Below are positions 13,667 to 20,646 of a stretch of DNA of 22,193 nucleotides, one piece after another; the stretch's first letter is position 1, and every line of letters begins with the position of its first letter. The position numbers and the translations under genes were made by a program. Below the pieces are notes generated by a model. That model was not told the DNA's origin and made no database searches. It saw only the letters and a list, made by a program, of their open reading frames with translations. The DNA lies in IMG/VR virus record IMGVR_UViG_3300009154_002726, positions 1 through 22,193 of that record; one strand, given 5' to 3'. The DNA is from a virus.

Positions 13667-14056
13667 GGGCCCGTACTGGTTTCGATTTTAAGAAAATGAA
13701 TTGAAATGCAAGTGGAGGTTGAATCGAGGACTCCTTAAAAAGTTTCACTTATATTAACTGCCAAAACAGCAAAATATAAAGGTCATATTTCTGCAAGAGT
13801 TTCTCTTGTTGAGATGACCGCTTCTGTAGCCTAAGTTCTACAGCGTGATATCCACGACGCATCTACTGGAATATTGCGTAATTAGATGTTTATTATTTAA
13901 TAGTTTTTCTGTTCTTTAAATAATAATATTCAAGATAGAATACGCTAAGTATGTTTGTTCTTATATCTATACAAAGCTAAAAAATAAAAAGAACTAAACT
14001 TGTAGTATTTTAATTTAGATTTTTAAAAGACAAAGGTTCAACTCCTTTCGGGTCCA
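13667..14056 (+). ncRNA. ssrA: Transfer-messenger RNA (tmRNA), phage-encoded
   Basis: About 390 nt. The 5' end GGGCCCG pairs over 7 bp (one G-U) with CGGGTCC at 14049-14055. The T-arm is AAAGG, loop TTCAACT, CCTTT (14032-14048). The D-like segment is TACTGGTTTCGATTT. The CCA end is not encoded; the discriminator is A. The tag frame most likely resumes at GCC 13760 within TTAACTGCCAAA. It encodes 24 residues starting AKTAKYKG and ending EMTASVA, with TAA at 13832. That stop sits in the loop of a hairpin (CTGTAG/CTACAG), as in other tmRNAs. Inside the tag frame GGTCAT pairs with ATGACC around CAAGAG/CTCTTG. Downstream, long AT stems (TTATTATTTAA/TTAAATAATAA) suit the pseudoknot region. It rescues stalled ribosomes with SmpB, which must come from host or elsewhere. 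Confidence 0.9.
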
Positions 14057-14124: not shown

Positions 14125-14838
14125 ATGGCGAGATCAACAATTACAATAAAGTGCTCAGAATGCCAAAAAGATATAGAAAAGATAAAATCTGACTATAATA
14201 GAAAAATAAAGGCTGGACAAAAAGATTTTTTTTGCAACAATATATGCTCTGGAATATTTGCTAATAAAAAAAATCCAGAGCATTTAGCAAAATATAGAGA
14301 TGAAGAAGGCACATTCTTAACTGGATACGCTAATAATAGATTAGATGAATATAGTCCATTCAAGTATTACAAAAACAAAGCAAAACTCAAGAATAAAGAA
14401 AAAGGCCTTGATACAGATTTAACTAACGAATATCTTAAAGACATTTATGAATCTCAAAATGGAGAATGTACTCTTACTGGTCTTAAAATGGATCTGCCAA
14501 GAACAACACAAGACGCAGACATTAAAAAAAGCCCAATTAAAGCTAGTTTGGATAGAATTGATTCCGATTTACCTTACCAAATAGGGAATGTACAATTTGT
14601 ATGCTATAGTGCAAATATGGCAAAAAATGATTTTACTCAAAAAGAATCTTTGGAATTTTTTAAAAATATAAAAAGTAAAAACTTAAAAGAAGCTATAAAT
14701 CTTTTAAGGCAAATTATTGAAAAAAATCTATACGATGATAAAAAAGAAAATCCAGAAAAAGACGGAACATCTTGGAATGTTTATCATTTAACTTTATTAC
14801 TATCTTTATTAGAAAATGAAATCAAATCAAATTTTTAA
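14125..14838 (+). CDS. HNH-type endonuclease with N-terminal zinc finger
   Basis: 237 residues. The N-terminus has a treble-clef-like Cys set (IKCSEC, later FFCNNIC at 36-42). The nuclease part is at about 110-165: NGECTLTGLKMDL, then ASLDRIDSDLPYQIGNVQFV with the following NxAK segment. This matches the HNH subfamily in which the first His is part of an S.DRID block and GNVQ[WF]V follows. Such proteins are common free-standing mobile endonucleases in large phages. It is transcribed from its own leaderless-type promoter just after the tmRNA. The last 23 bp overlap the longest frame of the SET gene. DNA target unknown; tmRNA or tRNA neighbours are frequent homing sites. Confidence 0.8.
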   Translation: MARSTITIKCSECQKDIEKIKSDYNRKIKAGQKDFFCNNICSGIFANKKNPEHLAKYRDEEGTFLTGYANNRLDEYSPFKYYKNKAKLKNKEKGLDTDLTNEYLKDIYESQNGECTLTGLKMDLPRTTQDADIKKSPIKASLDRIDSDLPYQIGNVQFVCYSANMAKNDFTQKESLEFFKNIKSKNLKEAINLLRQIIEKNLYDDKKENPEKDGTSWNVYHLTLLLSLLENEIKSNF

Positions 14839-14872
14839 AATTTTTTATTTTAATCATCCAGAGTTCTCGGAA

Positions 14873-14878
14873 GAGGAG
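14873..14878 (+). promoter_or_regulatory. Shine-Dalgarno that decides the SET gene start
   Basis: GAGGAG at 14873-14878 precedes ATG 14882 by 3 nt and ATG 14888 by 9 nt. Neither spacing rules out the other in-frame ATG. Both are favoured over the upstream ATG at 14816, which lies within the HNH gene without a recognisable site. Confidence 0.5.
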
Positions 14879-14881
14879 TTA

Positions 14882-15289
14882 ATGAATATGGATTATTTTT
14901 CTAATTCAGATTTGTATATTACTAAATCAAAAATAGAAAACGCAGGTAACGGAGTTTTTACTAAAAAAAATATAAAGAAAGACGATATTATTGAAATCTG
15001 TTATATTATTCCTTTCGATTTACCAAGCAAATATCAACCAGATCCAAAATTTGATGAATATTTTTACGACTATAAAAATGAAAAAGGAGAAAACTTTAAA
15101 TGCCTGCCATTAGGTCACTCTATAGTTTACAATAGTGCAGAAAAATTAAAAGACCTTAATATAAAATATCTATACTCAATTGAAAAAAGAAAAATAGTCT
15201 GGATAGCACATAAAGATATTAATCAGAATGAAGAATTATTATTTTTTTATGAAGTAAAAAAGAGCCAGAAATCGAATTCGAACCGATGA
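14882..15289 (+). CDS. SET-domain protein, putative protein-lysine methyltransferase
   Basis: 135 residues from ATG 14882; the frame is open to ATG 14816 (157 residues), but a GAGGAG site points to 14882 or 14888. SET family marks are SKIENAGNGVFTKKNIKKDD (the SAM-binding GxG region), GHSIVYNSAE (the position of the NH..PN motif, here NS rather than NH), and IVWIAHKDINQNEELLFFYE (catalytic Tyr region). Family enzymes transfer methyl groups from SAM to lysines. Small stand-alone SET proteins are known from algal viruses, where one acts on histone. A phage target would have to be a bacterial or virion protein. The changed His may affect activity. The last residues (KKSQKSNSNR) overlap a tRNA-like fragment, so the tail may be acquired. 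Confidence 0.72.
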   Translation: MNMDYFSNSDLYITKSKIENAGNGVFTKKNIKKDDIIEICYIIPFDLPSKYQPDPKFDEYFYDYKNEKGENFKCLPLGHSIVYNSAEKLKDLNIKYLYSIEKRKIVWIAHKDINQNEELLFFYEVKKSQKSNSNR

Positions 15290-15306
15290 CCTATTGAGCA
15301 TTAATC
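15264..15306 (-). pseudogene. tRNA 3'-half remnant
   Basis: The minus strand reads GGTCATCGGTTCGAATTCGA followed by TTTCTGGC. ATCGG, loop TTCGAAT and TCGAT form a 5-bp T-arm with the conserved TTCGAA loop, followed by seven acceptor-like bases. Before it lies a partly paired anticodon-like arm (TGTGA/TCAAT, only three pairs). No D-arm and no 5' acceptor strand exist nearby, so this is at best a decayed or transplanted tRNA half. It overlaps the last codons of the SET gene and lies just before the HNH gene at 15316. Confidence 0.4.
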
Positions 15307-15315
15307 ACATCGAAT

Positions 15316-15717
15316 ATGAACATCAAAAAATCAAGAAGAAAATGCAAAAATTGCAGTAAAGAGTGTAACAAACCAGAAAAATTTTATTGTAATAATATTT
15401 GTCAATCTAAATATCAAAATCAATTTAAAATACAAAAATGGTTAAATGGTGATGAACTTGGATACAAAACAAATGGTCAAACCAAATCTTTTATTAGAAA
15501 TTATTTAATATCAAAAGTAAATAGTTCATGCGAACTTTGTGGGTGGGATAAAAAAAATTTAATAACCAATAAAAGCACCTTAGAAGTACATCATAAAGAT
15601 GGAAATTATAAAAATAATAATATCAATAATCTTCAAGTTTTATGCCCAAATTGCCATTCTTTGACCGAATCTTATAAAAATTTAAATAAAGGCAAAGGAA
15701 GAGAACAGAGAATATAA
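15316..15717 (+). CDS. HNH endonuclease
   Basis: 133 residues. The N-terminal zinc finger has RKCKNCSKEC and FYCNNICQSK. The C-terminal HNH domain has SCELCGW (Cys pair), LEVHHKDGNYKNNNINNLQV (the catalytic HH and the N of HNH) and LCPNCHSLTES (second Cys pair and final His). The tail is basic (NKGKGREQR). It is typical of free-standing phage HNH homing-type nucleases, with an intact active site and zinc ligands. No promoter or Shine-Dalgarno is evident; it probably reads from the upstream HNH/SET transcript. It lies immediately after a tRNA-half remnant, a plausible scar of its insertion. Confidence 0.85.
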   Translation: MNIKKSRRKCKNCSKECNKPEKFYCNNICQSKYQNQFKIQKWLNGDELGYKTNGQTKSFIRNYLISKVNSSCELCGWDKKNLITNKSTLEVHHKDGNYKNNNINNLQVLCPNCHSLTESYKNLNKGKGREQRI

Positions 15718-15725
15718 AATTACAC

Positions 15726-15753
15726 TTGTTTTTTTAAAAAAAAGTACTATAAT
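15726..15753 (+). promoter_or_regulatory. Sigma-70-type promoter before the 15762 gene
   Basis: TTGTTT (15726-15731), a 16-bp spacer, TATAAT (15748-15753), 8 nt, then ATG at 15762. The -35 is weaker than in the other promoters, but the -10 is perfect and the leader would be 0-3 nt. Confidence 0.6.
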
Positions 15754-15761
15754 ATATTAAT

Positions 15762-16238
15762 ATGAGATTTTTATTGTCTTACTTTTTCTATTCGATTGGA
15801 GATATTTTAAGCAGAACTATTATGTTTTGGGGAGATGGATATGGATTCAAAATTTATAATAAAGTAATGTTATGGAGTGTAGATCTTGATAAAAAAGGTT
15901 TAATTTGGAAATATGTCGAATCTAAACCGAAAAACAAAAGGAAAAAGAAAAATGTTAAAAAAATTCTAAACTTTATTGATGGAGTATTTGAAGAAGAAAA
16001 AGAGCAACCAGTATTAGGTACTCTTTATAAAATCAAAGGTGAAGTTTTACCTTTTAGATATATTAGATTTACTAATGAAGTTTATTCAAATAAACCAGTA
16101 TACCACTTCAAGCATCATCAGTTAAAAGAGTATAAATTTAATAATCTTCGCAGAGTTGAAAGAAAAGCTAATAAAGAAGAAGTAAGAATATATAATCTAA
16201 TAAAAGGTCATGTAAATGAAGTCGCTGGAAATATTTAA
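15762..16238 (+). CDS. Hypothetical phage protein
   Basis: 158 residues. The N-terminal 50 residues are aromatic rich with a distinctive pattern (FFYSIGDILSRTIMFWGDGY, then NKVMLWSVDLDKKG), which I recall from small conserved phage proteins without a known function. The segment 1-22 could lie at a membrane, though it holds charged residues. A Lys-rich linker (about 55-68) leads to a second part with RYIRFTNEVYSNKPVYHFKH and a basic C-terminus. It has its own promoter (15726-15753), sits between two HNH genes on the same strand, and may be a native gene around which they inserted. Confidence 0.7.
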   Translation: MRFLLSYFFYSIGDILSRTIMFWGDGYGFKIYNKVMLWSVDLDKKGLIWKYVESKPKNKRKKKNVKKILNFIDGVFEEEKEQPVLGTLYKIKGEVLPFRYIRFTNEVYSNKPVYHFKHHQLKEYKFNNLRRVERKANKEEVRIYNLIKGHVNEVAGNI

Positions 16239-16262
16239 AACTTATTTTAAATAAATTGAAAT

Positions 16263-16763
16263 ATGAGAAATTGCCCAAATTGTAATAATATAGTTCCTAA
16301 TAGAATAATTATAGAAGGAAAAACGTATAACCTTCAAAAACGTAAGTATTGCTTTGAATGTTCTCCTTTCAAAAAACACAACACCAAACAAATACATATT
16401 CATAAAGAACCAAGTCCTAATAGTGCAAAGAATTATCAAAAAATGACAAAAGAACAAAAGAAAGCTTTTAATAAAATTAGTCATTTATATACCAAAAGAA
16501 GAAGATATTTAAGAAAGAAAAAATTAGTGTTAGAGAATGGCGGTAAATGTATCAAATGTAATTACGATAAAAATATAAGCAATCTTTGTTTTCATCATAG
16601 GGATCCAATTAAAAAATCATTTGAAATCAATGGTCATTCAATAGCTTCTAAACCTTGGGATAAAATAAAAGAAGAAGCAAACGAATGTGATTTATTGTGT
16701 TTTCATTGTCATAATGATATTCACTATACCGAAGGTTTAGATTGGAAAAATTGGGAAATGTAA
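16263..16763 (+). CDS. HNH endonuclease with N-terminal zinc finger
   Basis: 166 residues. Two zinc sites are visible: NCPNCN with YCFEC at the N-terminus, and KCIKCNYD with FHCHND in the nuclease domain. The active site is CFHHRDP, where the HH precedes a DP seen in many phage HNH enzymes, followed by WDKIKEEANECDLLCFHCHN. A long basic helix (about 58-88, TKRRRYLRKKK) may bind DNA. It ends 9 bp before the tRNA-Ser gene, the sort of position where phage HNH nucleases are often found. No clear promoter; a weak TAAATT sits 5 nt before the ATG. Confidence 0.85.
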   Translation: MRNCPNCNNIVPNRIIIEGKTYNLQKRKYCFECSPFKKHNTKQIHIHKEPSPNSAKNYQKMTKEQKKAFNKISHLYTKRRRYLRKKKLVLENGGKCIKCNYDKNISNLCFHHRDPIKKSFEINGHSIASKPWDKIKEEANECDLLCFHCHNDIHYTEGLDWKNWEM

Positions 16764-16772
16764 AAAGTTTTT

Positions 16773-16859
16773 GGAACGATGGCTGAGTGGTCTAAAGCAG
16801 AAGTTTACTAAACTTCCGATGGTTAAATCCATCCGTAGGTTCAAATCCTACTCGTTACA
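16773..16859 (+). tRNA. tRNA-Ser(ACU), reads AGU
   Basis: 87 nt, class II. The acceptor GGAACGA pairs with TCGTTAC except for one G-A mismatch at the second pair. The D-arm is GCTGAGTGGTCTAAAGC. The anticodon stem GAAGT/ACTTC encloses the loop TTACTAA, giving anticodon ACT (positions 34-36). The variable arm GATGG/CCATC and T-arm GTAGG-TTCAAAT-CCTAC are perfect. The discriminator is A and CCA is not encoded. The class II shape and the loop match tRNA-Ser(GCU) of bacteria with G34 changed to A. The A discriminator (G is usual for Ser) and the 2-71 mismatch leave some doubt about charging. Confidence 0.87.
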
Positions 16860-16866
16860 AAATATC

Positions 16867-16895
16867 ATATTTGCTAACAAGAAAATGCCAAATAT
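16867..16895 (+). repeat. 29-bp inverted-repeat element, copy 1
   Basis: Begins ATATTTGCTAAC and ends GCCAAATAT, so the 7-bp ends pair (ATATTTG/CAAATAT). It lies 8 bp after the tRNA and directly before the promoter of the 16935 gene. Three further copies of exactly the same length follow at 17228, 17261 and 17292. Confidence 0.75.
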
Positions 16896-16897
16896 AT

Positions 16898-16926
16898 TTG
16901 ACAAAACCATAATAGTCATATATAAT
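16898..16926 (+). promoter_or_regulatory. Perfect consensus sigma-70 promoter
   Basis: TTGACA (16898-16903), exactly 17 bp, TATAAT (16921-16926), 8 nt, then ATG at 16935. Both boxes match the consensus without error. The predicted start is within 2 nt of the start codon. The 29-bp repeat copy 1 ends 3 bp upstream of the -35 and could be an operator. Confidence 0.88.
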
Positions 16927-16934
16927 ATATTAAT

Positions 16935-17228
16935 ATGAATAAAATTAAAACACTAGCATTAATTGCACTATTTTCTGCCTCTTTAGGCTTGTCAGATACT
17001 GGTACTCAAAGCGAATCCACTCCAGTTGCAGATGGCTTTCTATCTGCTGGAGACTTAGTATTTGTTCGCCCAATTTCAACCGCAGCAACAATTGGTGCAT
17101 TTGGAATTTTTGCAGTAGTAGCTCCATTTACCGAAATGGCTGGATGTACAGAAGAAACTTATCAAGGTCTTGTAGAAAAACCTGGAAAGTTTTCTTTTGA
17201 TCGCGATCTTGGTGACTTTAAAAAGTAA
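16935..17228 (+). CDS. Small exported protein, function unknown
   Basis: 97 residues with an N-terminal signal peptide (MNKIKTLALIALFSASLGLS) and possible cleavage after it. The mature part has a Ser/Thr-rich stretch, then a hydrophobic segment (about 52-65, AATIGAFGIFAVVAPF) that could be a membrane helix, and a charged C-terminus with one Cys (MAGCTEE). No family recognised. It is driven by a perfect consensus promoter, so it is likely strongly expressed early by host polymerase. An envelope role such as superinfection exclusion is a guess. The stop codon overlaps the first base of repeat copy 2. Confidence 0.72.
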   Translation: MNKIKTLALIALFSASLGLSDTGTQSESTPVADGFLSAGDLVFVRPISTAATIGAFGIFAVVAPFTEMAGCTEETYQGLVEKPGKFSFDRDLGDFKK

Positions 17229-17256
17229 TATTTGCTAACGAGATTTAGGCAAATAT
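17228..17256 (+). repeat. 29-bp inverted-repeat element, copy 2
   Basis: Begins ATATTTGCTAACGAGA and ends GGCAAATAT, with an 8-bp perfect terminal stem ATATTTGC/GCAAATAT. It shares its first 12 bases with copy 1. It starts at the stop codon of the 16935 gene. Confidence 0.78.
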
Positions 17257-17260
17257 ACTC

Positions 17261-17289
17261 CTATTTGTGAGTAGGATTTAGCCAAATAT
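17261..17289 (+). repeat. 29-bp inverted-repeat element, copy 3
   Basis: Begins CTATTTGTGAGTAGGATTTA and ends GCCAAATAT. The stem is TATTTG/CAAATA. Copy 2 lies 4 bp before it and copy 4 lies 2 bp after it. Confidence 0.75.
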
Positions 17290-17291
17290 CT

Positions 17292-17320
17292 ATATTTGTG
17301 AACACGAAAAAGCCAAATAT
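17292..17320 (+). repeat. 29-bp inverted-repeat element, copy 4
   Basis: Begins ATATTTGTGAACACGAAA and ends GCCAAATAT, with a 7-bp stem. It abuts the ATG at 17321, so its 3' half occupies the place of a ribosome-binding site. Two further partial matches (TCCAAATATG and GGCCAAATAATG) lie inside the first codons of the next gene. Confidence 0.75.
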
Positions 17321-17518
17321 ATGAATGAAAAAAGTCCAAATATGAATCAATCTCGGCCAAATAATGGTGCTGGAAAAGGCGATAAAGCAAGAAATTGTTT
17401 CTCTAATAGGTTTAAGGAAAACTTTGATAGTATAAATTGGTCAGATGAAAGAGATAAGTCGTTGATTAAAAAAGAATTAAAAAACCATAATGGTTCAGCT
17501 ACATACATTTACAAATAA
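17321..17518 (+). CDS. Small phage protein with GAGKGDKAR motif
   Basis: 65 residues. The core GAGKGDKARNCFSNRFKENF followed by DSINWSDE resembles a widespread small phage protein with a GGKGDxxR...F...YDxIxW pattern; its function is not known to me. The C-terminal part is a basic helix. The ATG follows directly on repeat copy 4 with no Shine-Dalgarno and no promoter of its own, so it should be on the transcript from 16898. If the repeat hairpin forms in the mRNA it would press on the start site and could control translation. An in-frame ATG at residue 8 is an alternative start. Confidence 0.7.
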   Translation: MNEKSPNMNQSRPNNGAGKGDKARNCFSNRFKENFDSINWSDERDKSLIKKELKNHNGSATYIYK

Positions 17519-19877: not shown

Positions 19878-20458
19878 GAAAAAATTTTAGAGTTGTTCTT
19901 GAACTTTGGCCTAGTGCAGATAAAATGGATGAAGAATTATTTATTAATTTATCTGAACAATCAGTAACCAAAAGAAAAACTAATCATACATATATTCCTC
20001 AAGTAAGTGGTGGATGTAAATATCCTCAAATTAATTATAGTAGAAAAGGAAAAATAATTAGAGTATTATTGCATAATATTTTATTCTATCATAAGCATAG
20101 ATATTTGCCAGAAGAAATAGACCATACAGATTTTAACCCATTAAATAATACAATAGATAATTTAAAGCCATTAACTATGCAAGAAAACAGAAGGAAAAGA
20201 AGGAAAAGAGTAAAAGCAACATCTTCTAAATATATCGGAGTAAATTTAGACAAGAAAGCATTAAAACTTAAAACTGGAAAAATTTGGAGAGCAAGAGTTA
20301 CTATACCAAAAAATTATCCGAAATACAAAAATCAAAAAACTATTGAAAAGCATTTAGGTTTTTTTAAAACTGAAGATGAAGCTGGACAAGCGGTAAATAA
20401 TGCTATAATAGAATTAAATTTACAAAATATTTCAGTAATGAATAAAATATCAAAATAA
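19874..20458 (+). CDS. HNH endonuclease with C-terminal AP2-like DNA-binding domain
   Basis: 194 residues. The HNH part (about 60-110) has VLLHNILFYHK, then EEIDHTDFNPLNNTIDNLKP with the classic D-H, N and N of the HNH_3 group, and TMQENRRKRRKR. The C-terminal part (about 118-180), SKYIGVNLDKK, then IWRARVTIP and HLGFFKTEDEAGQAVNNA, is an AP2/ERF-like domain, which in phage mobile endonucleases grips DNA. It differs from the other three HNH proteins in the window and is a different lineage. It sits in an operon, overlapped by neighbours on both sides (ATGA, TAATG), which suggests domestication or precise insertion between coupled genes. Confidence 0.88.
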   Translation: MRKNFRVVLELWPSADKMDEELFINLSEQSVTKRKTNHTYIPQVSGGCKYPQINYSRKGKIIRVLLHNILFYHKHRYLPEEIDHTDFNPLNNTIDNLKPLTMQENRRKRRKRVKATSSKYIGVNLDKKALKLKTGKIWRARVTIPKNYPKYKNQKTIEKHLGFFKTEDEAGQAVNNAIIELNLQNISVMNKISK

Positions 20459-20646
20459 TGAAAACCCCTATTAAAATTGAAGTAAAAGAAGAAAATGGTT
20501 ATCAATACATTGAGTTACCAAATTCTTTAATGAAAAAAATGGGATGGAAAATCGGTGATACGATTGATTGGCAAGATAACAAAGATGGTAGTTGGAGTTT
20601 ATTGAAAGTCGTAAGTCCTTCTAAATCAAAAAAAAACAAAATTTGA
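20458..20646 (+). CDS. AbrB/MazE-like DNA-binding protein
   Basis: 62 residues. The sequence YIELPNSLMKKMGWKIGDTI is the swapped-hairpin beta-barrel motif of the SpoVT/AbrB and MazE families (consensus: hydrophobic, LP, then LGxxxGD). The C-terminal tail is Lys/Ser rich. Such proteins are transcription regulators or antitoxins. No toxin-like gene is next to it; the upstream neighbour is an HNH-AP2 protein and the downstream one a DNA ligase. It may be a stand-alone repressor or an antitoxin mimic. The ATG overlaps the upstream stop (TAATG). Confidence 0.78.
   Translation: MKTPIKIEVKEENGYQYIELPNSLMKKMGWKIGDTIDWQDNKDGSWSLLKVVSPSKSKKNKI

Follow-up and report, generated by a model that had tools for sequence, protein, structure and literature searches.

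The window analyzed here is an entire virus record of 22,193 bases. It carries a ribonucleotide reductase gene whose nearest relatives are those of pelagiphages and cyanophages (~50% identity), a UvdE gene, a tmRNA gene, and a gene whose product we take, by our own reading, to be rIIA-like; on the basis of this gene content, we regard the window as a fragment of a T4-like phage. The region of interest follows a tRNA-Ser gene (16772–16860, plus strand; ARAGORN and Rfam) and contains two small genes on the same strand. The first encodes a 97-aa protein (16935–17228) with a signal-peptide-like start, for which a protein family search gave no match, and the second encodes a 65-aa protein of the GAGKGDKARNCFS family (17321–17518), whose N-terminus, MNEKSPNMNQSRPNN, is itself repeat sequence. 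The homologue of the 65-aa protein in the relative G008 lacks this repeat-derived start. The anticodon of the tRNA, ACU, with A at position 34, is unusual for tRNA-Ser of bacteria or phages, and this tRNA adjoins the array in nearly all lineages. The record also holds the phage-encoded tmRNA (13667–14056; tag AKTAKYKGHISARVSLVEMTASVA), a SET domain in a 157-aa protein (14816–15289), and a 77-bp direct repeat (1512–1588 and 1968–2044; 87% identity, 456 bp apart). Near-identical TATAATATATTAATATG segments at 15748, 16921, and 19049 place a −10 box ~8 bp before the ATG of three genes, an arrangement that suggests leaderless mRNAs.

A sequence-only reading of this DNA had described four 29-bp units with the ends ATATTTG...CAAATAT around the two small genes. 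We found all four on the plus strand, with perfect ends in three. Copy 1 (16867–16895; profile score 37.4) lies directly downstream of the tRNA-Ser gene and before the promoter of the 97-aa gene, copy 2 (17228–17256; 34.3) overlaps the stop codon of that gene, copy 3 (17261–17289; 25.8) has a single mismatch since it begins with C instead of A, and copy 4 (17292–17320; 33.3) stands directly before ATG 17321. As had been stated, the tandem group has start-to-start distances of 33 and 31 bp, its last member touches the start codon, and two partial copies reach into the coding sequence. One of these (17316–17342, plus strand; score 16.4) includes the start codon of the 65-aa gene; relatives have an undamaged version of this copy, in which positions 6–8 read GTG or ATG. 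The other (17338–17363, plus strand; two mismatches) lies inside the gene and keeps only the right half. A further copy had been overlooked: a 27-bp element, GATTTACTAATGAAGTTTATTCAAATA, at 16066–16092 on the plus strand (score 20.8; core pattern exact), which is read in frame as RFTNEVYSNK within the upstream gene for a 158-aa protein. In total, the window thus has seven sites, five of them strong and two degraded. A profile derived from 182 distinct copies recovered six of these, all on the plus strand (16066, 16868, 17229, 17262, 17293, and 17316), and a pattern search added the weak site at 17338. At up to two mismatches, the window has 8 matches against 1.76 expected, a count reached in 0 of 100 shuffles, and the reversed control pattern has 0 matches. 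The repeats are therefore real and far from chance.

When we searched for relatives, exact matches to TATTTGNNAACNNGANNNNNNCAAATA were found in 52 stretches of IMG/VR contigs, ~40 of which carry two or more copies in one orientation. The repeat family thus extends over ~40 contigs of uncultured phages, most of which carry T4-like genes. Variant patterns of the 27-bp element bring in further lineages, though single hits from such patterns (e.g., L005, L032–L034, L089, and L144) are probably chance or unrelated. We found no exact match to the pattern in bacterial and archaeal genomes (~85,000 species), no convincing blastn match to the arrays among ~50,000 isolate phages, and no tblastn match to the 65-aa and 158-aa proteins in isolate phages; a literature search turned up no described repeat family of this kind among the papers covered. 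The array represents an undescribed repeat family of T4-like phages that is conserved by position.

The family-wide unit is 27 bp long and reads TATTTG-CK-AAY-(variable)-CCAAATA. In the profile of 182 copies, positions 2–5, 9–10, and 22–27 are nearly invariant, positions 6, 7, 8, and 11 are two-state, and positions 12–20 are nearly free. In all 151 sites from loci with an exact pattern match and from the window, exactly 10 nt separate CAAATA from the ten conserved bases on the left. The two TATTTG half-sites have centers 21 bp apart; their dyad is imperfect because the right half lacks the AAC contact. Neighboring copies, 196 of 196 pairs of which share a strand, are 31 to 39 bp apart with peaks at 33 and 35, and this spacing shows no helical phasing.

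In each of 21 records (23 to 158 kb long), the exact sites form one cluster of 0.2 to 2.5 kb with about 3 to 10 copies, which all share a strand. Matches outside the cluster are scattered, carry one mismatch, and are about as frequent as those of the reversed control. Iterons would be expected as a set of similar sites gathered at one place on each replicon, and these 21 records show such an arrangement. In several distinct lineages, the cluster lies near UvdE, tRNA-Ser(ACU), and a RuvB-like AAA+ or rIIA-like gene. Copies begin 0 to 8 nt past tRNA ends in the window and at L015 4587, L027 3036, L105 107, and L098 2367, and others overlap stop codons or contain the start codon of the 65-aa gene. 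HNH endonuclease genes, a different one in each lineage, sit beside or within the cluster near tRNA-Ser (window 14125–16763, L015, L047, and L098). On the 158-kb contig of G008, the motif cluster is overlapped by a CRISPR-like array (L038 1–1700) of about 8 to 9 units with a 36-nt repeat, GCTTCGCACTGGTAGCAATTTAAGGGACTGCAACAC, and a 65 to 67 bp period. Numerous degenerate 15-nt ends (AAGGRACTACAACAC) come after it, and several of these are joined directly to copies of the 27-bp element; the same contig also encodes, at 109378, a protein of 524 aa that carries a Cas12f1-like TNB domain.

Copies also occur inside genes. The 158-aa gene carries one, its relatives in L007, L018, and L048 carry them in tandem, and the UvdE gene of another lineage has copies as well. 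The UvdE peptide QFVSISSPN is identical in L015 and L087, but only in L087 does its coding sequence form a site, owing to three synonymous differences. Likewise, an alignment of the forms of the 158-aa family with and without the site shows no 27-bp insertion. These comparisons are suggestive of in-gene sites gained by substitution rather than insertion, and such gain would imply selection for the site itself; since the independent gains are few, the argument is suggestive only.

Positions 7–8 are alike within a genome and differ between lineages, with CT in many relatives of the window, CG in G011 and L006, and TG in G008. Against shuffled labels, this within-genome sharing gives p < 1/3000 at each position, a value to be read as a guide and not a probability because the eight lineages behind it are related to one another. 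Within the window both states occur, with three CT and two TG sites. The middle of the unit is slightly or not homogenized within genomes, which disfavors copying between repeats, a process that would homogenize this part as well. The pattern at positions 7–8 appears to be best explained by selection through a lineage-specific protein. The AbrB-like protein (20458–20646) had been put forward as a possible binder. By tblastn against four large array-carrying relatives, we found a homologue in G007 and none in G008, G022, or G011, and we rejected it as a universal binder. Each of the four also has a member of the 65-aa family, encoded far away from the array in two cases, and this family is a possible but unproven partner.

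The sequence-only reading had offered an operator array or an RNA hairpin array controlling translation of the 17321 gene. Protein binding of the operator-like kind is the better supported of the two, and we dropped hairpin control of translation. We give about even odds that the repeats form a binding array, of the iteron or operator type, for a putative dimeric phage DNA-binding protein. This reading is supported by the fixed 10-nt gap next to a nearly free middle, by the one single-strand cluster per genome, by positions 7–8 being shared within genomes but not between lineages, by the neighborhood conserved in several lineages, and by the UvdE peptide coded with or without a site. Against it stand the orientation along transcription, the absence of helical phasing, the imperfect dyad, the mixed positions 7–8 of the window, and the lack of the AbrB-like protein in three of four relatives. 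The fixed geometry, single cluster, uniform orientation, lineage-specific positions 7–8, and absence of RNA covariation are observations; from them we infer the binding of a protein, the reading of DNA rather than RNA, and what the complex does. In the mechanism we propose, a phage-encoded protein, probably a dimer, would bind each site sequence-specifically through the two TATTTG half-sites two helical turns apart, and an extra AAC contact on the left would give the site a direction. With sites 31 to 39 bp apart in one cluster, a single nucleoprotein complex per genome might form, comparable to initiator-bound iterons or a partition-type locus, and the copy beside the 16898 promoter could double as an operator.

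Lambda origin iterons are O-protein sites of ~19 bp, imperfect inverted repeats bound by a dimer by inference (PMC5043065). Like these sites, the units of the phage array are imperfect inverted repeats that each genome gathers into one cluster and that may lie in coding sequence (PMC5043065). It differs in its 27-bp unit with half-site centers 21 bp apart, in extending across as much as 2.5 kb, in and between several genes, and in that we found neither an initiator gene nor a GC-skew turn. The GC skew of four contigs does not turn where the cluster lies, which leaves an origin role without independent support; skew tracks gene direction and is a weak measure here. Iterons are not known to be used by T4-type phages.

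The first rival to the binding array is an RNA element, in which repeated motifs in a transcript would be targets of an RNA-binding protein from the phage or the host and act in processing, in translation control, or as a sponge. Every copy lies on the transcribed strand and neighboring pairs share orientation, copies adjoin stop codons and the ends of tRNAs, and the start codon of the 65-aa gene falls within one of them. The pairing statistics argue otherwise. The stem covariation that had been proposed as a check is absent, as pairing inside TATTT/AAATA and at the inner positions occurs at the rate of independent columns. The compensated extension noted in copy 2 does exist as C7–G21, but across the family positions 7/21 are pairable in only 11% of copies, again the value for independent columns. 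In 36 of the 182 copies, position 6 is A instead of G opposite an unchanged C22, which breaks the closing pair; folding energies average about −2 kcal/mol, and shuffling the interior makes folding no weaker; and loop length is constant. Rfam returned only the tRNA and tmRNA. With no covariation, broken closing pairs, and weak folding, a hairpin array has no support, and hairpin control of 17321 translation is further disfavored because the elements of relatives flank tRNA genes or sit in other genes. A linear RNA motif is possible because orientation follows transcription. Overall, we think an RNA element unlikely.

A second rival, which we likewise judge improbable, is a small mobile or recombining palindromic repeat that would mark points of gene exchange and lack a dedicated binding protein. 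Copies do lie at gene and tRNA borders and in frame within genes, G008 copies are joined to CRISPR-like repeat ends, and L009 compared with L007 resembles a deletion between two copies that leaves a truncated protein ending in repeat sequence. Such repeats do recombine; recombination need not be their purpose. The restriction to a single cluster per genome speaks against this rival, a fixed length with a free middle is unexpected for decaying repeats, and the apparent gain of in-gene sites by substitution argues against a mobile element. An insertion paired with an empty site, as expected of Rickettsia palindromic elements or MITEs, was not found in a comparison confined to the in-gene copies of the 158-aa family and UvdE. 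The recombination sites of tyrosine recombinases (dif, pdif, and integron attC) are dyads of ~28 bp, and the array similarly consists of directly repeated dyads flanking small genes and tRNAs. Its copies, however, share no central sequence, and PF00589 is absent from the 10 records searched for a phage-encoded enzyme, a result that leaves room for a host Xer; we set aside tyrosine-recombinase cassette sites. Rickettsia palindromic elements themselves (reviewed in PMC10969869) also occur between genes and in frame inside genes, but they are ~150 bp long and genome-wide, whereas the array has 27-bp units at one locus. PeSL, the promoter-stem-loop cassettes of T4-type phages (Arbiol 2010 and Comeau 2014, via PMC4503421), are similar in being short intergenic dyads in T4-like phages, with inter-copy recombination and, as at one copy here, an early-type promoter. 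Compared with PeSL, the array has no G+C-rich terminator hairpin, most copies are promoterless, all lie in one cluster, and some are inside genes; its stem is weak and A+T-rich, and the combination of a promoter with a terminator-type stem-loop was not found.

Ordinary transcription operators of one regulon, each copy governing its adjacent promoter, are a much weaker candidate and very unlikely. Beside copy 1, and 3 bp past its 27-bp core, we confirmed the perfect sigma-70-like promoter (16898–16926, plus strand; TTGACA, 17 bp, TATAAT), an arrangement that recurs in relatives. Near-perfect sigma-70 promoters follow a copy by 3 to 15 bp in 27 loci against 0.48 expected. However, the 27 loci come down to just two gene positions, the majority of the 243 distinct copies lack a neighboring promoter of this kind, and L007 retains the 97-aa promoter without a copy. 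An operator function is therefore possible at those two positions, one of which is that of copy 1, but not for the whole array, since all other copies lie away from promoters. Lastly, a peptide-level repeat, xFANExxPNK, with the DNA resemblance a coding by-product, would account for most in-gene copies lying in one frame, but we dismiss it as scarcely credible given that many copies are intergenic, contain in-frame stops, or lie beside tRNAs, that the copy at the L015 UvdE C-terminus is in another frame, and that wobble positions are among the most conserved.

Returning to the binding array, a broader proposal, which we offer tentatively and hold to be clearly less probable, is that the repeats are an ancestral cis-acting locus of a wide T4-like phage group: one oriented array that would serve as an origin-, partition-, or genome-organizing site, read by a co-evolving phage protein. 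T4, the model member of the group, is not known to carry such an array. If true, a conserved single-locus binding array would provide a handle on a putative new phage DNA-binding protein, for which the lineage-specific positions 7–8 make a direct prediction, namely that the binder could be found through co-variation, and it may offer insight into replication start or genome organization in uncultured T4-like phages.
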